Shown: positions 1,029 to 18,725 of the stretch, in pieces
Layout of the letters: each line of letters opens with the position of its first letter
Numbering within the stretch: the stretch's first letter is position 1
NCBI GenBank assembly: GCA_031178105.1
Contig: JAPSJX010000011.1
Location: 1 to 39,230, forward strand
Length of the DNA stretch: 39,230 nt
Reading direction: 5' to 3'
From: Agrococcus sp.
GTDB taxonomy: Bacteria; Actinomycetota; Actinomycetes; Actinomycetales; Microbacteriaceae
The notes under the pieces: model-generated
What the model was told of the DNA's origin: nothing
The model's database searches: none
The model's input: only the letters and a program-made list of their open reading frames with translations
Position numbers and translations under genes: made by a program

Positions 1029-1225
1029 GGTGTCTCCTCGCGTGGGGCCGGCGGGACGCCACCGGCGGTGGTGGCTCACCATAGCCCCGGCGCCTGGAGG
1101 TCCGGCCCCGTGGGCGACGGATGGCGCTCTGCCGACGGGTGCCGCCGCATCCCCACCGGCGCGCCCCCGCAGCCGTTCGACGAGCAGGAGGGCCGAAGCC
1201 AGGGCCGCTGTGCTGTACTGAGCGG

Positions 1226-4200
1226 ATGAGCGATGCGCTCGAGCAGTTCTCCCCCGCGACCCGCGCGTGGTTCACGGGCGCGTTCGACGCTCCCACGGCC
1301 GCGCAGTCGCAGGCGTGGGCTGCGATCGCGCGCGGCGAGCACACCCTCGTCGTCGCCCCGACGGGCTCCGGCAAGACGCTCGCCGCGTTCCTCTGGGCGC
1401 TCGACCGCCTGCAGCGGGAGGATGCCGCCCCGCACGAGGAGCGCGAGCCGGGCGTCCGCGTGCTGTACGTGTCGCCGCTCAAGGCGCTCGCCGTCGACGT
1501 CGACCGCAACCTGCGCGCGCCGCTCGCCGGCATCGCGGCGCGAGGTCGTGCCGACGGCGCTGAGCCGCCGCAGATCCGCATCGGGCTGCGCACGGGCGAC
1601 ACGCCCCAGGAGGAGCGTCGCGCGCAGGCGAAGCATCCCCCCGACATCCTCATCACGACGCCCGAGTCGCTCTTCCTGCTGCTCACGAGCCGCGCGCGCG
1701 AGACGCTCCGCACCGTCGAGACGGTGATCGTCGACGAGGTGCACGCCGTGGTGCCGACGAAGCGCGGCTCGCACCTCGCGCTCAGCCTCGAGCGGCTCGA
1801 CGCGCAGCTGGCGAAGCCGGCGCAGCGCATCGGGCTCTCGGCCACGGTGAAGCCGGCCGAGGAGGTCGCCGCCTTCCTGGGCGGGCCGGCGCCCGTCACG
1901 GTCGTGGCACCGCCGAGCGAGAAGCGCATCGACCTCACGATCACCGTGCCGGTCGACGACATGACCGACCTGCGCGGTCCGCAGCGCGAGGAAGCCGCTC
2001 CGACGGGCAGCGCGTTCGGCTCGACGAAGCCCGACCAGCCGTCGATCTGGCCGCACATCGAGCGCGAGGTGCTCGAGCTCGTCGACCGGCACCGCTCCAC
2101 GATCGTCTTCGTGAACGCCCGGCGGGCGGCCGAGCGGCTCACGGCCCGGTTGAACGAGCTCGACGCGGAGCGGCTCGACGAGGCCGAGGGGTCGCCGACC
2201 GGGGCGGATGCGTCGGACCGCGCGGGCGGGGTGGTCCTGCGCGACGTCGCCGAGCACATCCGCCTGCGCCTCGCGGAGCGCGCCGCAGCTCGCGACGCGG
2301 CCGGGCCGGACGCGGAGGCCCCCCCGCTCGCTCGCGCGCACCACGGCTCCGTGTCGAAGGAGCAGCGCGGCGAGATCGAGGACCAGCTGAAGTCGGGGCG
2401 GCTCCGCTGCGTCGTCGCCACCTCGAGCCTCGAGCTCGGCATCGACATGGGCGAGGTCGACCTCGTCGTGCAGGTCGAGGCGCCGCCGAGCACGGCGAGC
2501 GGCCTGCAGCGCGTCGGCCGCGCCGGCCACTCCGTGGGCGACGCGTCGCGAGGGGTGATCATCCCGAAGCACCGGGCCGACCTGCTGCACGCGACCGTCG
2601 TCGCCGACCGCATGGCGCGCGGCGAGCTGGAGCCGATCCGGATGCCTCGGCATCCGCTCGACGTGCTCGCGCAGCAGACGGTGGCGGCCGCGGCGATGGA
2701 CGAGCTCGTCGTCGACGAGTGGTACCAGACCGTGCGGCGCGCGGCCCCCTTCGCGCAGCTCTCGCGCGGCGCGTTCGACGCGACCCTCGACCTGGTCGCG
2801 GGCGTCTACCCGAGCGACGAGTTCGCGGAGCTGCGGCCGCGCGTCGTGTGGGACCGCGACGCCGGCACGATCACCGGCCGTCCGAGCGCGCAGCGCATCG
2901 CCGTCTCGAGCGGCGGCACCATCCCGGACCGCGGCCTGTTCGGGGTCTTCCTGTCGGGCCAGGAGGGCAAGCCCGGCGCCCGCGTCGGCGAGCTCGACGA
3001 GGAGATGGTCTACGAGACGCGCACGGGCGACGTCTTCGCCCTCGGCGCCACGAGCTGGCGCGTGGTCGACATCACGCACGACCGGGTGCTCGTCGTGCCG
3101 GCCTTCGGCGAGGTCGGGAAGCTGCCCTTCTGGCACGGCGACAACGAGGGCCGGCCCGCCGACCTCGGCGCCTCGATCGGCCGTGCGACCGCCGCGCTCG
3201 CAGCCGGCACGGGCTTCGAGCTGACGCACTCCGATGAGCGCGCCCGCCGCAACCTCGAGGCGTACGTGCGCGATCAGCTCACCGCCACCGGCGCCGTGCC
3301 GACCGACCGGCAGATCGTCGTCGAGCGCTCGCGCGACGAGCTCGGCGACTGGCGCCTCATCGTCCACTCCCCCTACGGCCGACGCGTGCACGCGCCGTGG
3401 GCGCTCGCGATCGACCGACGGCTGCGGGAGGACCGCGACCTGGGCGCGGCGGCGATGGCGTCCGACGACGGGATCGTGATCCGCATCCCCGACTCCGACG
3501 CCGAGCCGCCCGGCTTCGACCTGCTGCGCTTCGAGCCGGAGGAGCTCGAGCGCATCGTCGAGGCGGAGGCGGGCGGCACCGCGCTCTTCGCGAGCCGGTT
3601 CCGCGAGTGCGCGGCGCGCGCCCTGCTGCTGCCCAAGCGCGACCCGGCCCGCCGGGCACCGCTCTGGCAGCAGCGGCAGCGCGCCGCGCAGCTGCTCGAC
3701 GTCGCCAAGCGCTACCCCGACTTCCCCATCGTGCTCGAGGCGCTTCGCGAGGTGCTGCAGGACGCCTACGACCTGCCGGCGCTGCGCTCGATCGCCGAGC
3801 GGCTGCAGCACGGCGACATCCGGGTCGTCGAGGTGGAGACGCCGAGCCCCTCGCCCTTCGCGCACCACCTGCTGTTCGGCTACGTCGGCGCGTTCCTCTA
3901 CGAGGGCGACGCCCCGCTCGCCGAGCGCCGTGCGGCGGCGCTCACGCTCGATCCGACGCTGCTGGCCGAGGTGCTCGGCACCACCGCGCTGCGCGAGCTG
4001 CTCGATCCGGCCGTGGTCGAGCGCATCGAGCTCGAGCTGCAGCGGCTCACGCCCGACCGTCGAGCGCGCGGTGTCGAGGGCGCTGCCGACCTGCTGCGGC
4101 TGCTCGGGCCGCTGCGGGTCGACGAGCTCGCGGCGCGGCTCGAGGCCGGGGCGGGACCGGGCGACGCGGCCCTCGACGAGCCGGCAGCCGCGGCCATCGC

Positions 4201-5833
4201 GGCCGAGCTCGTCGACGCCCGCCGTGCCGTGCGCGTGCGGATCGGTGACGAGGAGCGGATCGCCGCGATCGAGGATGTCGCCCGGCTCCGCGACGCGCTC
4301 GGCGTGCCGCCGCCTCCGGGCGTCCCCTCCGCGCTGCTCGAGACGGTGCTCGATCCGATCGGCGATGTCGTCGCTCGTCACGCGCGCACGCACGGTCCGT
4401 TCACCGTCGAGGATGTCGGCGCGCGGCTCGCGCTCGCGCCGGCCGTCGCGCGCTCAGCCCTGCGAGCGCTCGAGGCGCAGGGACGCGTGCTGTCGGGCGC
4501 CTACAGACCCGGCGGCAGCGGCGAGGAGTGGATCGACGCGCAGGTGCTGTCCAAGCTCAAGCGGCGCAGCCTGCAGGCGCTGCGCAGCGACGTCGAGCCC
4601 GTCGACCACGCGGTCTTCGCCGACCACCTGCTCGCGCACCAGCACGTGACCCGCCCGCTCACCGGCAGCGACGGGCTGCTCGAGGCGCTCGACGGCCTCG
4701 ACGGCCTGCCGCTGCCGCTCAGCGCGCTCGAGACGCTCATCCTGCCGTCTCGCGTGAAGGGCTACCGGCCGTCGATGCTCGACGAGCTGACCGCGAGCGG
4801 CCTCGTCACCTGGACGGGTGCGGGCGCGCTCACGGGCAAGGACGGCCGCGTCGTGCTGCGGTCGGCGGATGGGACGGCGCAGCGCCGCGACGTCGACCAC
4901 GACGACCCCGAAGCCGCAGCGATCCTGGCTGCGCTCGCCGAGGGCGGCGCCCTCTTCGCCCGCCAGCTCGGCGACATGGTGGCGCTCGACCCGGCTCGGC
5001 TGGCGGAGGTGCTGTGGCCGCTCGTCTGGGCGGGACGGATCACGAACGACACGATCGCGCCGCTGCGTGCGCACCTGCTCGGGACGCGAGCACGGTCGGC
5101 GCCCGCGCCCAGCCGGCGCGCATCGCCTGCGAGCCGCCGCCGGATCGGGCTCGCGCGGCCCTCGCGGAGCGACGCGATGCCGCTGCTCGCCGGTCGCTGG
5201 CTGCTGGCGTCGAGCCCGGCCGGGGCGCCGACCGAGCTCGCGGCCCAGACCGCCGACGCGCTGCTCGCCCGCTACGGCGTGGTCACGCGAGGCAGCGTCG
5301 TCGCGGAGGACGTGCCGGGCGGCTTCCACGGCGTCTACCAGGTGCTCAAGGCGTTCGAGGAGGGCGGCCACACCCGCCGCGGCTACTTCGTCGACGGCCT
5401 CGGCGCCGCGCAGTTCGCGGATGCGCCGGTCGTCGACGCGCTGCGGGCGCGCCAGTCGAGCGGGCCGAGCGAGGCGGTCGCGACGGTCTCGACCGTCGAT
5501 CCGGCGAATCCGTTCGGTGCGGCGCTGCCCTGGCCCGAGGCGCGCGGCGACCACAAGCCGACGCGGCGCGTCGGCGCGCTGACGACGATCGCCGCCGGTC
5601 GTGCTGTGCTGCACCTCGAGCGCGGCGGCAGGTCGCTGCTCACGTTCACGGACGACGAGGACGTGCTCGTGCGCGCGCTCGAGAGCCTCGCCGACGCCGT
5701 GACGCGGCTGGGCGGCCGGCGCCGGGTGCTCGAGCAGGTCGACGGCCGCTCGTCGCTCGACGCCGACCTCGCCCCGATGCTCGAGCGCGCGGGTCTGCGG
5801 CGGACCCCCCGCGGCTACCGGATCGGCCCCTGA
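1226..5833 (+). CDS. lhr: Lhr-family ATP-dependent helicase
   Basis: Very long ORF; APTGSGKTLAAFLW (Walker A), VDEVHAVV (DEVH), LSATVKP, ATSSLELGIDMGEVDLVVQVEAP, QRVGRAGH; start at MSDALEQFSPATRAWF. Confidence 0.92.
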   Translation: MSDALEQFSPATRAWFTGAFDAPTAAQSQAWAAIARGEHTLVVAPTGSGKTLAAFLWALDRLQREDAAPHEEREPGVRVLYVSPLKALAVDVDRNLRAPLAGIAARGRADGAEPPQIRIGLRTGDTPQEERRAQAKHPPDILITTPESLFLLLTSRARETLRTVETVIVDEVHAVVPTKRGSHLALSLERLDAQLAKPAQRIGLSATVKPAEEVAAFLGGPAPVTVVAPPSEKRIDLTITVPVDDMTDLRGPQREEAAPTGSAFGSTKPDQPSIWPHIEREVLELVDRHRSTIVFVNARRAAERLTARLNELDAERLDEAEGSPTGADASDRAGGVVLRDVAEHIRLRLAERAAARDAAGPDAEAPPLARAHHGSVSKEQRGEIEDQLKSGRLRCVVATSSLELGIDMGEVDLVVQVEAPPSTASGLQRVGRAGHSVGDASRGVIIPKHRADLLHATVVADRMARGELEPIRMPRHPLDVLAQQTVAAAAMDELVVDEWYQTVRRAAPFAQLSRGAFDATLDLVAGVYPSDEFAELRPRVVWDRDAGTITGRPSAQRIAVSSGGTIPDRGLFGVFLSGQEGKPGARVGELDEEMVYETRTGDVFALGATSWRVVDITHDRVLVVPAFGEVGKLPFWHGDNEGRPADLGASIGRATAALAAGTGFELTHSDERARRNLEAYVRDQLTATGAVPTDRQIVVERSRDELGDWRLIVHSPYGRRVHAPWALAIDRRLREDRDLGAAAMASDDGIVIRIPDSDAEPPGFDLLRFEPEELERIVEAEAGGTALFASRFRECAARALLLPKRDPARRAPLWQQRQRAAQLLDVAKRYPDFPIVLEALREVLQDAYDLPALRSIAERLQHGDIRVVEVETPSPSPFAHHLLFGYVGAFLYEGDAPLAERRAAALTLDPTLLAEVLGTTALRELLDPAVVERIELELQRLTPDRRARGVEGAADLLRLLGPLRVDELAARLEAGAGPGDAALDEPAAAAIAAELVDARRAVRVRIGDEERIAAIEDVARLRDALGVPPPPGVPSALLETVLDPIGDVVARHARTHGPFTVEDVGARLALAPAVARSALRALEAQGRVLSGAYRPGGSGEEWIDAQVLSKLKRRSLQALRSDVEPVDHAVFADHLLAHQHVTRPLTGSDGLLEALDGLDGLPLPLSALETLILPSRVKGYRPSMLDELTASGLVTWTGAGALTGKDGRVVLRSADGTAQRRDVDHDDPEAAAILAALAEGGALFARQLGDMVALDPARLAEVLWPLVWAGRITNDTIAPLRAHLLGTRARSAPAPSRRASPASRRRIGLARPSRSDAMPLLAGRWLLASSPAGAPTELAAQTADALLARYGVVTRGSVVAEDVPGGFHGVYQVLKAFEEGGHTRRGYFVDGLGAAQFADAPVVDALRARQSSGPSEAVATVSTVDPANPFGAALPWPEARGDHKPTRRVGALTTIAAGRAVLHLERGGRSLLTFTDDEDVLVRALESLADAVTRLGGRRRVLEQVDGRSSLDADLAPMLERAGLRRTPRGYRIGP

Positions 5834-7375: not shown

Positions 7376-8326
7376 CTAGGCGTCGGCAGAGGATGACCGG
7401 CCAGGTGCGAGGGGCCCCGTGGGAGCGGCGGTGATCGGGGCAGCGTCACGGGAGCGCGCGCTCGAGGTGCGGTAGACCGCGGCGAGGCCCCAGCCCGCGG
7501 CGAGCCCCACAGCCCACCAGGGTGCGGCGAGGCCTTCCGCCATCGGCCCCGCCTCTTGGGTGACGGGCGTCGCGATGCGCTCACCGGTGACGATGATGCG
7601 GTGGCTGTTGATGCCGAGCGGCGTGCACGTCACGAGGCTCACCAGGTCGCGGCCCGTGACAGGCGTCAGCAGGTCGGTGTCGGTCGGCTCGATCACCTGC
7701 ACGTCGCGCACCTCGTAGGTGAGTGCCTCACCGTAGACGTCGACCTCGAACACGTCGCCCACGCGCACGCGGTCGAGATCGCTGAACAGCACGGACTCGG
7801 GCAGGCCGCGGTGGGCGGTCAGCACGCTGTGCGCACCGCTGCCGCCGACCGGCAGCGCGGAGCCGAGCAGGTGGCCGACGCCCTTCCGCAGCGTCGCCTC
7901 GTCGGTGCCGTGGTAGACCGGCAGGTCGACGCCGATGGACGGGATGCGCACGCGCGCCATCACGTCGGCCGGCCCGAGGTCGAGCTGCTCCTCGTACGCG
8001 GCGACGACCGCACGCTGGTCCGCGAGCGGCGTCTGCCCGTACGGGTCGATGAGCGCGCCCCCGGTGAGCGTCTCGTTGTACGCGCGAGCCGCCGAGAGCT
8101 CCTGCTCCCGGCCGGCCGGGCCGAGCTGCTCCATGGCGTCGGTGTAGGCGTCGACGCGCGCCGACTGCTCGAGCTGCGAGAACCAGCTCGCCGCGGCGGG
8201 GTAGAGCAGCACCGCGACGCCGAGCATCACCATGGCGGCCACGGCGAGCGCTGATGCGGAGCCGCGTCGCCGAGCGGCGGGTCGAGCCTGGGCGGCCGAC
8301 CGGGGCGGCGACGCGAGCGCGGTCAC
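7376..8326 (-). CDS. Class C (pilus-type) sortase
   Basis: N-terminal TM, LTAHRGLPESVLFSDLDRVRVGD, LVSLVTCTPLGINSHRIIVTGER (catalytic His/Cys/Arg context), C-terminal hydrophobic segment. Confidence 0.92.
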   Translation of the reverse strand: MTALASPPRSAAQARPAARRRGSASALAVAAMVMLGVAVLLYPAAASWFSQLEQSARVDAYTDAMEQLGPAGREQELSAARAYNETLTGGALIDPYGQTPLADQRAVVAAYEEQLDLGPADVMARVRIPSIGVDLPVYHGTDEATLRKGVGHLLGSALPVGGSGAHSVLTAHRGLPESVLFSDLDRVRVGDVFEVDVYGEALTYEVRDVQVIEPTDTDLLTPVTGRDLVSLVTCTPLGINSHRIIVTGERIATPVTQEAGPMAEGLAAPWWAVGLAAGWGLAAVYRTSSARSRDAAPITAAPTGPLAPGRSSSADA

Positions 8327-8348
8327 TGCAGCTCCTCGGATGGGGTGC

Positions 8349-8383
8349 GCTCCGCGGCGGAGGACTGGCCTCCGCCGCGGAGC
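8349..8383. terminator. Perfect 15-bp inverted repeat (GCTCCGCGGCGGAGG-ACTGG-CCTCCGCCGCGGAGC) between pilin and sortase genes
   Basis: Arms read directly; lies between pilin stop (8392) and sortase start (8326). Confidence 0.8.
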
Positions 8384-8391
8384 AGGGTCGA

Positions 8392-9912
8392 TCAGACGTC
8401 GGCGCGAGCCTGGCGACGACGCACGAGGGCGAAGCCCACGGCCGTCACCAGGAGCCCTGCGCCACCGATCATGAAGGCGGCCTGGCCGCTGCCACCGGTG
8501 ACGGGGAGGGCGTACGCGGCGATCTTGTCGTTGCCCACCTGGCGCTCGATGGTGGTCTGCGACAGGTCACCGGCGGTCACGACGACCTCGAGCGGCGCCG
8601 TGCCCCGCGTGTAGCCGAGCGGAGCGACCGTCTCGACGATCCAGTAGGTGCCGGCCTTGAGGCCCGGGACGAAGGCGATGCCCTGGTCGTCCGACACGAA
8701 GTCGACCTGGTCCGGCGTCGCGGCGTCGACGGCGATCGGGTTGCGGTCGGCGGCGGCGTCGTCGGCCGACCGGTAGACGCGGAACGTGGCGCCGGAGAGC
8801 GCGACGTCCTGGGCACCCGTCTCGTGCTTGCGGATCGTCAGCGTGCCCCAGCTCGTCGGGGTGGGGGTCTCGGCGGTGAACGCGCCGTCGTCGAACGCGA
8901 CCGTGGCAGCGTTCATGATGATGCCGTCCTCGGTCTGCGCCGCCGTGTCGCCCTCGAGTGCGTCGATCGTCGTGACGATGTCCACGGTGAGCTCGGCGCC
9001 GTCGGCAGCCGCGAGCAGCGCCCGGCCGTCGGGGGTGAACGTCACCGAGAAGTCGCGGCCATCGACGACCGAGTAGTGCTGACCCGAGACGAGCGCGAGC
9101 GGCTGACGCTCGCCCGGCGTCGCGGTCGCTGCGGTGGCGGCGACGGTCGCGCCGACGTAGCCGAGTCGCGCGTCGAGCGTGTCCGTGACGACGAACGTGT
9201 CGAGGGTGTCATCCGCGGCGACCTCCGGCACATCGACCGCGATGGTCCACGACACGCGGTCGCCGAGGCCGAACGCGGCTGCGTCGTCGACGACCTTGCT
9301 GATCGTCGTCAGCGAGTTCTTCGGGTAGACGTTCACGTCGTAGAGCCACTCCGAGCCGGTCGGGTGCGCCATCGGCACCGACACGAGGAAGGGCGCCGAC
9401 TCGATCGCGATCTGGTTGGCCCCGGGCGACGTCTCCGTCACCAGGTACACGCCCAGGGGCAGGCCGGTGAGCGCCAACTGTCCGGCGTTCTGCGAGCCGA
9501 TCGCGCCCGTGCTGCCGGTGCGCGTCGTCGTCGTCCCGGCGGCGATGCGCTCCTGCGCGGTGATGATCGCGGCATCGTCGTCCGCCGCCTCGAGCTGCTC
9601 CGCGAGCTCCCAGCCTGCAGTGGTCCGCAGGTCGGTCCCGGGCACGAGCTCCACCGTGAAGCCCACGCCGCCGAGCGGCGTCAGGGCGCTGAGGTCGTCG
9701 GCGGCGAGCGCGAGACCGTTGTTCGCGAGCCCAGAGGCGACGGCGGGCTCGGCGTACTTGTGGATGGTGATCGAGCCCTCGCGGGTCGTGTCGACGTTGG
9801 GTCCCGCCGCCGACGCGGGCAGCCCGCCGCCGAGGGTGGTGATGGCCGCGAGCGCGACGGCTCCGAAGCCGACGGCGACGCGGGCGCCGAGGCGCGTGTT
9901 CGTGGATGCCAT
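8392..9912 (-). CDS. SpaH/EbpB-type LPXTG major pilin (backbone)
   Basis: Signal peptide; ITIHKY; pilin-motif-like VNVYPKN (9316-9327); E-box-like ETVAPLGY (8611-8634); LPVTG (8494-8508) + TM + RRRQAR tail; start chosen at MASTNTRLG. Confidence 0.92.
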   Translation of the reverse strand: MASTNTRLGARVAVGFGAVALAAITTLGGGLPASAAGPNVDTTREGSITIHKYAEPAVASGLANNGLALAADDLSALTPLGGVGFTVELVPGTDLRTTAGWELAEQLEAADDDAAIITAQERIAAGTTTTRTGSTGAIGSQNAGQLALTGLPLGVYLVTETSPGANQIAIESAPFLVSVPMAHPTGSEWLYDVNVYPKNSLTTISKVVDDAAAFGLGDRVSWTIAVDVPEVAADDTLDTFVVTDTLDARLGYVGATVAATAATATPGERQPLALVSGQHYSVVDGRDFSVTFTPDGRALLAAADGAELTVDIVTTIDALEGDTAAQTEDGIIMNAATVAFDDGAFTAETPTPTSWGTLTIRKHETGAQDVALSGATFRVYRSADDAAADRNPIAVDAATPDQVDFVSDDQGIAFVPGLKAGTYWIVETVAPLGYTRGTAPLEVVVTAGDLSQTTIERQVGNDKIAAYALPVTGGSGQAAFMIGGAGLLVTAVGFALVRRRQARADV

Positions 9913-9928
9913 GGAGGCGGTTCCTTCC

Positions 9929-12922
9929 TTAGGGCGAAGCATGACGGTGGGGATCGTGGGGTCTGCGGGGGGTCGCGCCGGCCGCGAGGCGCAGGCGACC
10001 GGTGCGCGCGAGCAGGACCGCTGCGGCGAGCAGCAGCAGGGCGGTGCCGCCGAGCAGGTAGGCGTCGGCGCCGACACCGCCGGTGAGCGGCAGGGCGAGG
10101 GGCGTGGGCGCGGTGGCGACGAAGCGGTAGATCGCGGTCTGGCCGGCCGCGACCGAGACGGATGCGGGATCGATCGCCTGCCAGAGCGCTGCGCTCGCGT
10201 GGTCGACGGCGCCGTTCGGGCCGACCGCGCCGAGGTACTGCTCGACGCGCAGCGCGACGTGCGGCGCCGACGAGCTCGAGCTGAGCGCGTAGGCATGGCC
10301 GGGGCGCACGGCGATCGTGTTGGCGCTCGACACCGACTCGGAGCCGACGACCGTCGCGGTCGTCAGGCCGACGAGCGAGGCGGGGCTGCCCGTGAGCGAG
10401 AACTGGGGGGCCGCGATGGCCGTCGTCCCCTCGATGCGCTCGAGCAGCACGAGCGCGGCCGTGGCGTTCGTCGCGGTGCAGCGCACGTGCATGCCGAGCG
10501 GCGCGCTGACGCGGTCGTCCACGGCGTCGGTCCAGCCGGAGCCCGTGGCGGATGCACCGGCCGCGTTCAGCGGCACGCACGCCCATCCGCCCTGCTGCGT
10601 GTAGACCGCGGGGCCGGACTCCGACAGGACGTACGGGGCGTCGGCGGTGACAGGGGCAGAGGCGGCGCTCGTCCCTGCCCGACCCGAGAACCCCGTCGGG
10701 CCGGTGGCGCTCAGGGTGAAGTCACCAGCGCTCGCGGTGCCGTTCTGCACGACCTTCGCCAGCGACAGCGTCGTCCTGCAGGTGACAGCGTTGGTGACGA
10801 CGACGCGGTTGAGGCCCTGCGTGAGCGTGATGGCGGCGCTGCCGCTGGCGATGCTCGTCGCTCGGGCGACGCCGTTCACCTCGGTGATGGTGCGGGCGTC
10901 GATGGAGCAGCCGGGCAGCCAGGCCGGGATCGCCCCGACGGTCTCGCCGACCTGCACGACGCCGCCCGGCGCATAGCCCTCGTAGACGGAGCCGAACAGC
11001 GCGCCCGCCTGCCCCGAGATCGTCGGTGCAGCGGTGAGCCACGACGGCTGCGACCCGTGCACCAGCGCCGTGCCGCCGTCGATGACCCAGCGCTTGTCGA
11101 CCACGAGCGCGACGCCGACGGTGCTCGAGGTCGTGGCCTGGGCGGTGAGGCGTGCTCCGGCGGGGGTCGAGCCGGCACCGGTCGCGGTGTTCTGGAGCTG
11201 CTGGCCGCGACGCTGCTCCGTGACGGTGACGCTGTAGCTGAGCGTGACGGTCGCGCCGACGGCGAGCGCATCGCTGCGGCTCCAGCTCACGGTCGTCCCG
11301 CTCCTGGTCACGGAGCCGGAGGTCCCTGACGAGACCGAGACAGCGACGCCCGCGGCGGCCAGCGTCGCACCGTCGAGCACTCTGCTCAGGTCGTCGACGA
11401 CCGTCGGCGCCGCCAGCGTGGTGCGCCCGGTGTTGCGGAGCGTGACCGTGTAGCGGATGACGCCGCCCACCCGCTGCACCGTGCCGGCTGCCACGTCGGT
11501 GGTCTTGGTCGTCGCGAGGGCGGGTGCCGCGAGCGCGACCCGGTGGTCCTCCACTTCTCCGCTCGACGTGATGCCGGTCGGCTCGAGCGCGCCGGACGCG
11601 ACGATGCGGACGCGCATGAACGTGGGATCGGCCTCGGTCGCCGGCTTGACATCCGCCGGGATGGTCCACCGCACCGTCGCCTGGCCGGCGGAGCTGCAGG
11701 AGCCGGCCGTAGAGGATTCGTCGGCGTCGAAGGCACCGCTCCTGTCGAAGTCGAGCCAGGCTCGCACAGGAGCGCCGGCGCCGACGCACGAGATGGTCAT
11801 GTCCTGGCTCGTGCCGGGCAGCGCGCGGAGGTCGACACGCGGCTGGTTCTGCACGAGCACATCGTCGGCGTTGCGGAAGCCGAAGGAGGCGTCCTCGTCG
11901 TCCGTGCCGGCGAGGTCGTCGGCCGTTCCATCGGACGCCATCGGGTAGCCGTCGTCGGCGTCGACGAGCGCGCCCAGCCGCGGGGTCGGCGCCGTCGTCT
12001 GCGCGAGCACGTACCCGGCGTCGAAGACGTTGGTGCGACCTGGCTCGCACACGAGACCGAGCAGGCACGACGGCTCGGTCGTCGTGCCCCCGCTCCAGCC
12101 CGGCTGGAAGACGGCAGCCGCCGACCCGTAGCCGACGGGCGCGTCGCCGTAGTCGACCGCGAGCATCACGCCCAGCGCGATCGCGCTCTTGCCGCTGCCC
12201 GAGACCGTCACGCGGGTGAGCGACGTGGCGTTCTCGGCGAACGCGACGGCCGCCGGGCCCGACGGGCAGTCGGTGCTCGCCGTCGCCCCGTGGAGCTCGA
12301 GGCGCGTGCGCTCGTCGGCGGGTCGCACGGCAGTGGTCGCCTGGGTGCAGCTGGCCCGGTAGCGATCGATGATCCGCCATGTGGAGCCGCTCGGGGCGGT
12401 GGCTCCGACGTGCTCGGCGTTGCGCGACTGCTCCGCGTCGGCGAACACCAGCCCTCCGAGCGGCTGATGCACGCCGCCCACGGTTGCCCCGCACGAGAGG
12501 TTGAAGGTGCTCGTCTCCCCGTTGAGCCGCGTCGCCAGCCCGACATCGAGCCGGTTGAGCGAGTCCGCGCCGCCGACGTTGTAGAGGTTGTCGAACGCGT
12601 CGCCCATCCAGCTCCCGGGGCGGTATGCGACGAGACCGCCGGACAGGTTCGAGATCGTGCATGAGATCGTCAGCTGCTGCCCCGCCACGGTGGAGGTGGT
12701 CGTGCGTGTGCCGTTCCCGACCACGGTGCCCGGCGTGCCCCACGAGAACCACTCGATCGCCTGCGTGAAGCGCCCGGCACCGCCGGCCGCCTTGACGGCC
12801 TGCGCCTCCGACGCAGGCATGTACGGCGCGAGCGGCATCAGCAGCGCCCCCACGACAGCAAGCGCGAGCGCCGCGACGGCGGCTCGGCGGCTGCGCCGTG
12901 CGGAGGGCCTACGAGTGCGCAT
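9929..12922 (-). CDS. Large LPXTG-anchored surface protein with GEVED-like and DUF11-like repeats; probable pilus tip/ancillary adhesin
   Basis: Signal peptide; DYGDAPVGYG...DADDGYP...DDEDASF...SSGEVEDHRVAL; DUF11-like 'VIRYTVTLRNTGRTTLAAPTVVDDL'; LPLTG (10079-10093) + TM + basic tail; stop is 16 nt from the pilin start. Confidence 0.85.
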   Translation of the reverse strand: MRTRRPSARRSRRAAVAALALAVVGALLMPLAPYMPASEAQAVKAAGGAGRFTQAIEWFSWGTPGTVVGNGTRTTTSTVAGQQLTISCTISNLSGGLVAYRPGSWMGDAFDNLYNVGGADSLNRLDVGLATRLNGETSTFNLSCGATVGGVHQPLGGLVFADAEQSRNAEHVGATAPSGSTWRIIDRYRASCTQATTAVRPADERTRLELHGATASTDCPSGPAAVAFAENATSLTRVTVSGSGKSAIALGVMLAVDYGDAPVGYGSAAAVFQPGWSGGTTTEPSCLLGLVCEPGRTNVFDAGYVLAQTTAPTPRLGALVDADDGYPMASDGTADDLAGTDDEDASFGFRNADDVLVQNQPRVDLRALPGTSQDMTISCVGAGAPVRAWLDFDRSGAFDADESSTAGSCSSAGQATVRWTIPADVKPATEADPTFMRVRIVASGALEPTGITSSGEVEDHRVALAAPALATTKTTDVAAGTVQRVGGVIRYTVTLRNTGRTTLAAPTVVDDLSRVLDGATLAAAGVAVSVSSGTSGSVTRSGTTVSWSRSDALAVGATVTLSYSVTVTEQRRGQQLQNTATGAGSTPAGARLTAQATTSSTVGVALVVDKRWVIDGGTALVHGSQPSWLTAAPTISGQAGALFGSVYEGYAPGGVVQVGETVGAIPAWLPGCSIDARTITEVNGVARATSIASGSAAITLTQGLNRVVVTNAVTCRTTLSLAKVVQNGTASAGDFTLSATGPTGFSGRAGTSAASAPVTADAPYVLSESGPAVYTQQGGWACVPLNAAGASATGSGWTDAVDDRVSAPLGMHVRCTATNATAALVLLERIEGTTAIAAPQFSLTGSPASLVGLTTATVVGSESVSSANTIAVRPGHAYALSSSSSAPHVALRVEQYLGAVGPNGAVDHASAALWQAIDPASVSVAAGQTAIYRFVATAPTPLALPLTGGVGADAYLLGGTALLLLAAAVLLARTGRLRLAAGATPRRPHDPHRHASP

Positions 12923-14774: not shown

Positions 14775-14904
14775 CCGGCGCTGAGCGACACCTCCGGGGG
14801 ACCTCGGTGGTCCTTCAGGCGTCACTGTGTTTGTAAATGTGCTCGAACTGCATCCTTTTTAGCGGGCGAAGATTGCGCGACTGCGCGAGCCCAAGGAACT
14901 CTAC

Positions 14905-14915
14905 GAGGAGGAGGA
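14905..14915 (+). promoter_or_regulatory. Strong Shine-Dalgarno (GAGGAGGAGGA) for the SipW module first gene
   Basis: Purine run immediately upstream of ATG at 14920. Confidence 0.7.
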
Positions 14916-14919
14916 CGTC

Positions 14920-15582
14920 ATGACGCAGCACAAGACGCGCAAGCTGGCCGCGATCGGAGTAGGGGCGCTGGTCATCGGCGTCGGCGCGACCTACACGCTC
15001 GCCTCGTGGAACGACTCCGAGTGGGTCCACGGTGGACTCGCCGGTGCTGCCGGGATCGGCAGCTCGGAGTTCGAGGTGCAGCAGAACGCTGCGGCGCCGT
15101 ACGCGGACACGTCGGCGAACTGGGGCGACTACGAGACCAATCCGGGTGACGGACTCACGTTCACCGCCGACGCCCTCGCGCTGACGCCCGGCGACACGGT
15201 CTTCGCACCGGTGGCGCTGCGGACCACCGAGCCCTCGGTGGCCGGCACCGTCGCGCTGCAGGCCGCTGTGCCCGCATCCGGCATCGAGGTCGACGATGCC
15301 GGGGCCGCGCTCTGGAACGCTGTGCGCGTGTCGGTCTACACCGCGACCGGCCCCACCCCGCCGTCGGCATGCACGAACGACTTCGTGGCCGCCGACTGGA
15401 CGCAGATCGTGGCAGACGATCTGCTCGCGACCGCGGCGACCACCACGACGCAGAGCCTCGCCGAGAAGGCCGGCTCGACCCAGCACTACTGCTTCGCGCT
15501 GACCCTCCCTGCCGACGCACCGGACACCCTGCAGGGTCGCACGATCGCTCCGGCCTGGGAGTTCGCCTCCATCTCGCAGTGA
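14920..15582 (+). CDS. Secreted protein with SipW-dependent-type (alternate) signal peptide
   Basis: MTQHKTRKLAAIGVGALVIGVGATYTLASWNDSEWVHGG N-terminus, followed by signal peptidase gene. Confidence 0.75.
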   Translation: MTQHKTRKLAAIGVGALVIGVGATYTLASWNDSEWVHGGLAGAAGIGSSEFEVQQNAAAPYADTSANWGDYETNPGDGLTFTADALALTPGDTVFAPVALRTTEPSVAGTVALQAAVPASGIEVDDAGAALWNAVRVSVYTATGPTPPSACTNDFVAADWTQIVADDLLATAATTTTQSLAEKAGSTQHYCFALTLPADAPDTLQGRTIAPAWEFASISQ

Positions 15583-15601
15583 CGCGAACCTCGGTGTGGA
15601 C

Positions 15602-16216
15602 ATGATCAAGAAGACGTTCGGCGTGGCCGTGACGGCGATCGTCGCGGTGACGGTCGTCGCGCTCGCAGCGTGGTTCGTGTTCGCCTGGCTCGGCGGTGCG
15701 ACGCTCGTGACCTTCCGCACGGGGTCGATGGCGCCGACCATGCCTCAGGGCGCGGTCGCCGTCACGCTCCCGACCGGGGCGGATGCGCTCAGCGCGGGCG
15801 ACGTCGTCACCGTCGAGCGCGAGCCCGGCTCGCTCCCGATCACGCACCGCGTGCTGGAGGTGCGGGTGCCCGCCGAGGCGTCGGACCCGCGCCTGCGGGA
15901 GCTCGTGCTGCAGGGCGACGCCAACGCGACGCCCGACGTGGAGCCCTACCTCGTCACCGACGTCCGCCGCGTCGTCCTGTCGGTGCCCCATCTGGGCAGC
16001 GCCCTGATGGTGCTGCAGTCCCCCGTCGGGATGGGCGGGCTCACGGTGCTCGCCGGCGCCCTCGCGGCGTGGGCGTTCTGGCCTCGGCGCTCCGACGACG
16101 CGGCCGACGACGCCGCAGCCGCCGACGCCGGGGCCGATGTCGCTCGAGCCGAGGACGCAGCGCCGAGCGCTGCGCACGCCGACGCGCTGACGCCGGCGAC
16201 CCATCCCGCCGCATGA
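15602..16216 (+). CDS. Signal peptidase I, SipW/ER-type
   Basis: FRTGSMAPTMPQGAVAV (Ser box), PITHRVLEV (Ser-His type His box), LQGDANATPD, N- and C-terminal TM segments; start MIKKTFGVAV. Confidence 0.88.
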   Translation: MIKKTFGVAVTAIVAVTVVALAAWFVFAWLGGATLVTFRTGSMAPTMPQGAVAVTLPTGADALSAGDVVTVEREPGSLPITHRVLEVRVPAEASDPRLRELVLQGDANATPDVEPYLVTDVRRVVLSVPHLGSALMVLQSPVGMGGLTVLAGALAAWAFWPRRSDDAADDAAAADAGADVARAEDAAPSAAHADALTPATHPAA

Positions 16217-16929
16217 GTCGTCGCACCCGGCAGGGCATCGTCAGCGCGCTGACGGTGCTCTTCGCGACGCTCCTCCTCGCCGGATCCGGGCTGACCGCGA
16301 CGCGTGTTGCCGCCGTGCTGCACGAGGTGGCCGAGACGGGCGCGCCGGGGATGCTGGCGCTGCGCGCCGGGCCCGCCGCACCGCACTGGACCGGCGTCGT
16401 CCCCGGGGACTCGCTGCACTGGCCGATCGAGGCGTCGCTCTCGGATGCACCGACCGGCTCGCTGAGCGTCGAGCTCCAAGCGCAGGGCGGGCTCGTCGCC
16501 GCTGGCCTGACCGCCGCGGTCGAGGCGTGCACCACTCCGTTCGTCGACGCGACGTCCGATGCGGCGCCGTCGTGCGAGACGTCGGCCACGGCCGTGCTCG
16601 CCGAGACACCGCTGGCCGAGCTCGCGAGCGCGTCGAGCGGCCGCTTCGCGCTCGCCGACCTCGAGCGCGGGCATCCGCGGCACCTGCTGGTCTCGCTGCA
16701 CCTGCCCCGTTCGGCTGACCCCGCCGCGGTCGCCGGCGCGACCGCCACCGTGGGGGTCGGCCTGCACGCCGCCGGCGACTCGCCCGCGCCAGCGGCTCCG
16801 CAGACAGCGCTGCCCGAGCGACTGCCCGTCACCGGCATGGATGTGTCGGCCATCGGCTTCCTGGGCGCCGGTTGCCTCGGACTCGGCGCATGCCTCGTGG
16901 CCCGACGTCGGATGCGAGCAGCAGCGTGA
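16213..16929 (+). CDS. LPXTG-anchored surface protein
   Basis: N-terminal hydrophobic segment; ERLPVTGMDVSAIGFLGAGCLGLGACLVARRRMRAAA C-terminus; ATGA overlap with previous gene. Confidence 0.8.
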   Translation: MSRRTRQGIVSALTVLFATLLLAGSGLTATRVAAVLHEVAETGAPGMLALRAGPAAPHWTGVVPGDSLHWPIEASLSDAPTGSLSVELQAQGGLVAAGLTAAVEACTTPFVDATSDAAPSCETSATAVLAETPLAELASASSGRFALADLERGHPRHLLVSLHLPRSADPAAVAGATATVGVGLHAAGDSPAPAAPQTALPERLPVTGMDVSAIGFLGAGCLGLGACLVARRRMRAAA

Positions 16930-18725
16930 GCGGGCGGAGGGTGCGAGCACGGGGCGCGGCGGCGGCGGCAGCCGCCATCGTGGCGTCCGTCGCGCTCGTG
17001 GCGCATGGAGGTGTCACGACGGATGCGTCGTGGAACGATCGCGAGTTCGTGCACGGCGCCGCCAGCACGCTCGACTGCGCCGCCGCCGAGGGCGACTTCG
17101 CCTCGCGCAGCGCCGGGCGTCTCCTGAGCGGCTCGCTGCTCGGGATCGACCTCGACCGGATCGCCTCCGTCGACGGGCTCGTCGTCACCAACGACGGCAG
17201 CCGGAGCCGCCCCGACGCTTCCGGCGCGGCGCCGGCGGATCCCGCGCCGGACGCCTATGCCGACCCGCTGAGCGCTCAGGCGCTGGGTCTCGTCGAGGCT
17301 CAGCTGCCGGGGGTGCTGCAGTTCCCGCTCGGGACAGACCTCGGCATCGCCGGGCAGTACGCCAGGTCCAGCTCCGACGGCACGGCCGTCGGCGCCGCGG
17401 GAGCGCTCACCCCGTCCGGCGGCATCGCCCTCGATACCGATGGCCAGTACCCCGAGCTGGCGACCGTGCACGTGTCGCAGCTGCTGCGGACCATCAACCC
17501 CACGGCGGCGCCGGCGCTGGAGGGCGTCGCCGACGTGTCGCTGATCACTGGCGCCGTGACGGGCAGGTCTGAGGTCGATGGATGCGCGCTGGCATGGTCC
17601 GGCCCCGCGACCGCCGTCACGCGCGACTACCTGGCCGCATCGCTGCGCACCGACATCACCTCCCCGACCGTCGGGGCGCTGACGAGCGCGGTCGACGCCT
17701 CGGTCGACTCCCTCCAGCGCGCGGCCGACGGCATCGGCGGCAACGCCGCTGTCAGGGGCGGCATCACGAGCGGGCTCACCGCTCTGGTCGACGGCGCGCT
17801 GGACAGCTCGAGCGGACTGCGACTGAGCACGGTCACCGTCACGGAGCTCGGCGCTCCGATCGAGCTCGCGGCTGTCCGGGCGCTCGTCTCTCAGCCCTTC
17901 GGCGACGCCGGCGGCGTCGTCACGGTCGACCCCGGCGCTGGCACGATCAGCGTCGACACGGCCGCGCTGCTCACCGCCGCCTACCCGGGCCAGTACACCG
18001 ACGGGCTGAACGGCCTGCCACCGAACACGGATCTGCTGAGCGATCCCAGGATCGTCACGGCGCTCACCGCAGCCCTCGGCGCCGCCCTGCACGATTGGAT
18101 CGCGGACGTCGAGGCAGCGCTCGTGACGGCGATCGACGCCGTCGCGATCACGGCGAAGGCATCGATCTCGCTCGGCACGTACGTCGCCCTCCCGCTGCTC
18201 GCTCCTCAATGGGTCGACGTCGCGAGGATCGACGTCGACGTCTCGGGAAGCCTCGGCAGCCTCCTCGACAGCGGCGGGGTCGTCACAGCGGAGGCGACAC
18301 TGCTGTCCGACGTGCTCGGGCCGCTCACCGCAGAGCTGGACGGTCTGGCCGCCGCGCTCGTCGCCGGCGCCGGCGAGGTCGTCGGCACCACGGTCGACGG
18401 CGCGCTCTCCGCGGTCGGCAGCATCCCCGCCGAGATCGAGGCGCTGGCAGACCCGATCGTCGCCGCGGCGTCGACCGTCTACTCGACGCTCTTCGCGAGC
18501 GGGATCGTGGCCGTCACGGTGAACGCGCAGAACGCGCCGCAGGCCGGTTCCGCTCAGCCGCACGACTGGGACGCGCTGCCGGGAGGACGCTTCGAGGTGG
18601 CCGCGATGCGCATCGGTGTGCTCGGCGCGGTCGGTGAGGACGACGCCCGGCTCTACCTGGGGCGCGGCTCGGTCGGTCCAGGCTGCGTGCTGGCGAGTGC
18701 GCCACTGCCGTGCGCCGGGTACTGA
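16926..18725 (+). CDS. Choice-of-anchor-G-like secreted protein with SipW-type signal
   Basis: GTGA overlap start at 16926; N-terminus ...HGGVTTDASWNDREFVHGAASTLDC; Ala/Val/Asp-rich secreted body; no LPXTG at C-terminus. Confidence 0.7.
   Translation: MSGRRVRARGAAAAAAAIVASVALVAHGGVTTDASWNDREFVHGAASTLDCAAAEGDFASRSAGRLLSGSLLGIDLDRIASVDGLVVTNDGSRSRPDASGAAPADPAPDAYADPLSAQALGLVEAQLPGVLQFPLGTDLGIAGQYARSSSDGTAVGAAGALTPSGGIALDTDGQYPELATVHVSQLLRTINPTAAPALEGVADVSLITGAVTGRSEVDGCALAWSGPATAVTRDYLAASLRTDITSPTVGALTSAVDASVDSLQRAADGIGGNAAVRGGITSGLTALVDGALDSSSGLRLSTVTVTELGAPIELAAVRALVSQPFGDAGGVVTVDPGAGTISVDTAALLTAAYPGQYTDGLNGLPPNTDLLSDPRIVTALTAALGAALHDWIADVEAALVTAIDAVAITAKASISLGTYVALPLLAPQWVDVARIDVDVSGSLGSLLDSGGVVTAEATLLSDVLGPLTAELDGLAAALVAGAGEVVGTTVDGALSAVGSIPAEIEALADPIVAAASTVYSTLFASGIVAVTVNAQNAPQAGSAQPHDWDALPGGRFEVAAMRIGVLGAVGEDDARLYLGRGSVGPGCVLASAPLPCAGY

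Follow-up and report, generated by a model that had tools for sequence, protein, structure and literature searches.

The four genes at positions 14920 to 18725 of the window (the whole stretch of 39,230 nucleotides of Agrococcus sp. DNA that was analysed) are, taken as a whole, best explained as a SipW/TasA-type export and assembly module, a reading to which we assign a probability of roughly 0.55. Judged from their sequences, the parts of this module belong to annotated families, and it is the four-gene combination that appears to be new. Its features, all on the forward (+) strand, are the following.

14904..14915, +: GA-rich Shine-Dalgarno-like run GAGGAGGAGG before gene 1, read from the sequence
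14920..15582, +: gene 1, SipW-type secreted protein of 220 aa, candidate TasA/camelysin-like fibre subunit (TIGR04088, 17.3 bits)
15001..15036, +: N-terminal motif of gene 1, ASWNDSEWVHGG; A28, W30, D32 and E34 invariant among 17 aligned proteins
15602..16216, +: gene 2, SipW-type (S26B, TIGR02228) signal peptidase of 204 aa (59.1 bits)
15725..15727, +: Ser42 of gene 2 (TGSM), predicted to be catalytic, role taken from the S26 family
15845..15847, +: His82 of gene 2 (ITHR), predicted to be catalytic, role taken from the S26 family
16213..16929, +: gene 3, 238 aa, ordinary signal peptide, beta-rich domain and wall-sorting signal, candidate fibre base
16822..16836, +: LPVTG sorting motif of gene 3, followed by a hydrophobic segment and an Arg-rich end (TIGR01167, 12.6 bits)
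16926..18725, +: gene 4, choice-of-anchor G family protein of 599 aa without a C-terminal anchor (NF033766, 174.1 bits)
17025..17060, +: N-terminal motif of gene 4, ASWNDREFVHGA, from the sequence and the comparison of modules

The four open reading frames were re-read from the sequence at these positions, and the gene order given in the earlier note (SipW-type substrate, SipW-type peptidase, LPVTG protein, choice-of-anchor G protein) is confirmed. The 4-nt overlaps that it had claimed for the last three genes are present as well: in the ATGA at 16213-16216 the stop codon of gene 2 overlaps the ATG of gene 3, and in the GTGA at 16926-16929 the stop codon of gene 3 overlaps the GTG of gene 4. 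Among 30 scorable modules, genes 3 and 4 share such a 4-nt overlap in 26 cases and genes 2 and 3 in 15, a recurrence that supports translational coupling, which had been proposed from the overlaps in the window, as a conserved feature of these modules.

The gene 2 protein scores above the TIGR02228 cut-off of 51.85 bits and carries the Ser of TGSM and, in place of Lys, the His of THR; both residues are kept in 32/32 aligned sequences. Gene 1 falls just under the cut-off of 19 bits for TIGR04088, the profile of the SipW-dependent signal, which is passed by seven of the eight gene 1 homologs tested (top score 38.1 bits). The view that the alternate-signal families are already annotated in databases stands, gene 2 passing its profile and gene 1 coming close to its own. 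Since most of the tested homologs pass TIGR04088, the ASWND motif of the window is best read as a local form of this SipW-cognate signal and not as a motif new in kind. The profile TIGR04089 (alternate signal, RER_14450 type) found no match in the genome that contains the window, a result that is uninformative because it found none in the control genomes either.

The motifs of gene 1 (from position 15001) and gene 4 (from position 17025) are each directly preceded by a hydrophobic segment. In the assembly from which the window derives (1.94 Mb, 65% complete), codons for ASWND occur at these two positions only, with one match in the control, and the wider pattern A-[AS]-W-[NTK]-D-x-E adds one further match, which lies inside a 623-aa open reading frame and has no hydrophobic segment before it. 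When the family profiles of gene 1 and gene 4 were compared with hhalign, 27 columns aligned (Prob 94); these cover the signal and the motif only, and no similarity beyond them was found by this comparison, in keeping with the claim that the two substrates are alike in the motif and nowhere else. The motif is also kept in homologous modules, on which the earlier note had staked its proposal: the residues A28, W30, D32 and E34 are invariant in 17/17 aligned module members of gene 1, A-x-[WFY]-x-D-x-[EQ] is present in 27/34 module gene 4 proteins, and A-x-W in all 34. The full motif is found in 0/27 choice-of-anchor-G proteins outside modules, whose signals are of the AxA type or Tat-like; a partial exception to the separation of the two settings is locus L152, where an AxA-type choice-of-anchor-G protein is encoded immediately downstream of a SipW locus of the tandem type. 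It should be noted that module and non-module choice-of-anchor-G proteins separate on a tree with two changes, so that the contrast of 27/34 and 0/27 reflects few independent events and is consistent but not highly replicated.

Within a module, the N-terminal arms of the two substrates resemble each other more closely than they do across modules (46.8 versus 41.9; 0/10,000 permutations), and shared ancestry may partly lie behind this greater likeness. An extension of the shared arm past the motif was also considered; the similarity there is borderline (p 0.05), and a clear extension is not established. A comparison of GTSxFDC counts with unlinked proteins is left aside, since module duplicates were included among the latter.

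Gene 1 homologs are present in 45/196 and choice-of-anchor-G proteins in 74/196 genomes of the family. A neighbourhood survey, of the kind that the earlier note had proposed, recovered the module in 34 loci of one bacterial order, which represent about 20 genera and four families; the full set of four genes is present in 30 of them, and module loci were defined by profile tests on the retrieved homologous regions. These 34 loci include 22 four-gene loci in the family, the window counted (at L081, gene 1 is recognised only as a fragment), and 10 loci from the search of the order, of which L135 belongs to the same family and nine to three other families. They also include L086 and L087, a three-gene version of the module from which gene 3 is absent; here D-x-E has been lost jointly from gene 1 and gene 4, and A-x-W is retained in both. 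Because three sampled genus-mates are without matches to gene 1 or to choice-of-anchor G, the presence of the module is patchy. No match for gene 4 was found on plasmids. Together, the family matches, the 34 conserved loci and the absence of the motif from the 27 outside proteins provide good support for the proposal of a dedicated peptidase with two motif-sharing substrates, and we consider it very probable that the SipW-type enzyme acts on genes 1 and 4.

The fold of gene 1 is less firmly placed. Gene 1 matches neither the PF12389 nor the NF046066 profile (TasA/camelysin), and a sequence search of the PDB returned no useful relative. The structures of the gene 1 and gene 3 proteins were predicted from single sequences without an alignment, and the resulting models are of low confidence (mean pLDDT 51.2 and 56.8, respectively). 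Neither model has a Foldseek match under E 0.001. Among the best 50 rows for gene 1, the TasA fibre (8aur) ranks 8 and TasA (5of2) ranks 46; among the best 50 rows for gene 3, the bundling pilus 7ueg ranks 5 and 8aur ranks 39. Equally high ranks are taken by carbohydrate-binding modules and ephrin-receptor domains. The TasA-family rows are a hint only, and we regard a TasA-like fold of gene 1 as fairly likely. A profile comparison of gene 1 with gene 3 gave a similarity (Prob 77) that is not relied on. The analogy to a SipW-TasA fibre drawn in the earlier note is plausible, but the fold evidence behind it is weak. The module shows the pattern known from TasA and TapA, two SipW-type substrates that are alike only in the arm.

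Gene 3 scores under the TIGR01167 cut-off (12.6 versus 15.9 bits), and its LPVTG motif, hydrophobic segment and Arg tail are all present; L[PA]xTG followed by a hydrophobic segment is found in nearly all of its homologs. These homologs have AxA-type signals, and gene 3 is thus an unlikely substrate for SipW. Gene 4 exceeds the cut-off of 45 bits for NF033766 (choice-of-anchor G), and the gene 4 proteins of modules stop at the end of this domain without a C-terminal anchor. Many of the choice-of-anchor-G proteins outside modules run on to an LPxTG-like tail, and some of them stop at the domain too. At loci L089-L092, choice-of-anchor-G proteins without a C-terminal anchor were observed, most of them with a twin-Arg-like signal.

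We suggest that the module operates in the following way. The gene 2 peptidase would remove the signal peptides of both substrates (genes 1 and 4) by cutting near A-x-W-x-D-x-E, a step to which the observed motif, gene linkage and catalytic residues point. The mature gene 1 protein may be a TasA/camelysin-like beta-sandwich that polymerises; its N-terminal arm would act as a donor strand, with the invariant Trp as the candidate counterpart of F29 of TasA. In gene 4 the same arm is joined to a choice-of-anchor-G domain, which is unrelated; as this protein has no anchor of its own, it might enter the fibre and act there as initiator, cap or adhesive subunit, a part comparable to that of TapA beside TasA. 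The gene 3 protein would be exported with the help of an ordinary peptidase and attached to the wall by a sortase, and its sorting signal and the SipW-gene 3 fusions described below suggest that it may serve as the base beside the SipW peptidase. From the arm common to genes 1 and 4 we infer a shared strand. We place the chance that a fibre is formed at about even, and the shared donor strand is a more tentative proposition. Equally tentative is a more far-reaching version of this model, a widespread actinobacterial donor-strand system in which a TasA-like subunit and an unrelated choice-of-anchor-G protein share an arm and the peptidase is either coupled to a sortase-linked base or fused with it, with the result that export, cleavage and the start of the fibre take place at one site.

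An alternative account holds that the module is devoted to the export of two independent surface or secreted proteins, the motif serving for recognition by the peptidase only and no fibre being formed. The restriction of the similarity between genes 1 and 4 to the signal and the motif (27 columns, Prob 94), its borderline character past the motif and the weak fold matches would all suit this account, which we nevertheless consider less likely than the main reading: gene 4 is without an anchor of its own, gene 3 could provide one in trans, and related loci encode SipW and the gene 3 domain as a fusion, a combination of features that suggests joint assembly at the surface. The fusions place SipW and a gene 3-like domain in one open reading frame at nine loci (L082, L083, L084, L088, L096, L098, L149, L151 and L152), all of which also carry tandem gene 1-like proteins. 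Long SipW reading frames with a sorting-signal-like tail at their end occur at L138 and L141, and this tail may be a divergent fused gene 3.

According to a second alternative, the housekeeping signal peptidase processes both substrates and gene 2 has another role. A separate Peptidase_S26 gene is indeed present on another contig of the genome (C115; E 8e-43), but the conservation of Ser and His in all 32 aligned gene 2 sequences, the association of gene 2 with motif-bearing substrates, and the ordinary AxA or Tat-like signals, devoid of the motif, of choice-of-anchor-G proteins outside modules make this very unlikely. That gene 1 is a camelysin-type protease and not a structural subunit appears highly improbable: the one link to such enzymes is a weak match of a paralog type to Pfam Peptidase_M73 (E 0.036), which lies below the Pfam cut-off and is not shared by gene 1 itself, and there is no His among the invariant columns of the 17 aligned gene 1 proteins.

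Among known systems, the SipW/TasA-type module in the window is most readily compared with tapA-sipW-tasA of Bacillus subtilis, where SipW cleaves TasA and TapA, TasA joins via an N-terminal donor strand, and TapA shares the residues concerned (PMC9674648, PMC10151520). The two systems have in common a SipW-type peptidase, a single operon, two substrates with common N-terminal residues and an accessory protein whose core domain differs. They differ in that genes 3 and 4 are not TapA, that the wall anchor here is an L[PA]xTG protein, that gene 1 shows no significant sequence similarity to TasA, and that the phylum is presumably a different one. The sipW-tasA / calY / capP system of Bacillus cereus likewise contains SipW substrates, which assemble into mixed filaments together with a chaperone-like partner (PMC13082335); this system is described as sortase-independent, whereas gene 3 of the module has a sorting signal. 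The NCBIfam families TIGR02228, TIGR04088 and NF033766, to which genes 2, 1 and 4, respectively, belong or come close, are annotated singly. Within the same order, tandem-type SipW loci (L082-L085, L088, L096-L098, L149-L154) encode two gene 1-like proteins, SipW and mostly a gene 3-like domain; unlike the module, they have no choice-of-anchor-G gene within the unit, and their SipW frequently forms a fusion with the gene 3 domain. In the literature searched on SipW in Actinobacteria, choice-of-anchor G, SipW-dependent signals and alternate signal export, a search that left many subscription papers and preprints uncovered, the module is not described. The earlier suggestion of an undescribed system applies to the combination of genes; the parts fall into annotated families and carry a motif that is not new in kind.

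If the proposed reading is true, TasA-type fibre assembly would reach a large Gram-positive group outside Bacillus in which it is apparently undescribed, and the modules would offer a natural experiment on the joint working of a SipW peptidase, a shared arm and a wall anchor. The SipW-gene 3 fusions in particular lead to a specific and testable prediction on the site at which assembly starts.

Elsewhere in the window, the reverse (-) strand at 7376-12922 carries what resembles a canonical sortase pilus cluster, located some 2 kb from the module. It encodes a SpaH/EbpB-type LPXTG major pilin (314 bits), a large LPLTG protein in which CshA_NR2, GEVED and SpaA_2 domains were recognised, and a class C sortase (246.5 bits); this sortase is one of three in the genome and the one inside the window. 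On the forward strand, positions 1121-5833 encode a 1570-aa ATP-dependent helicase of the PRK09751 type (1665.6 bits).
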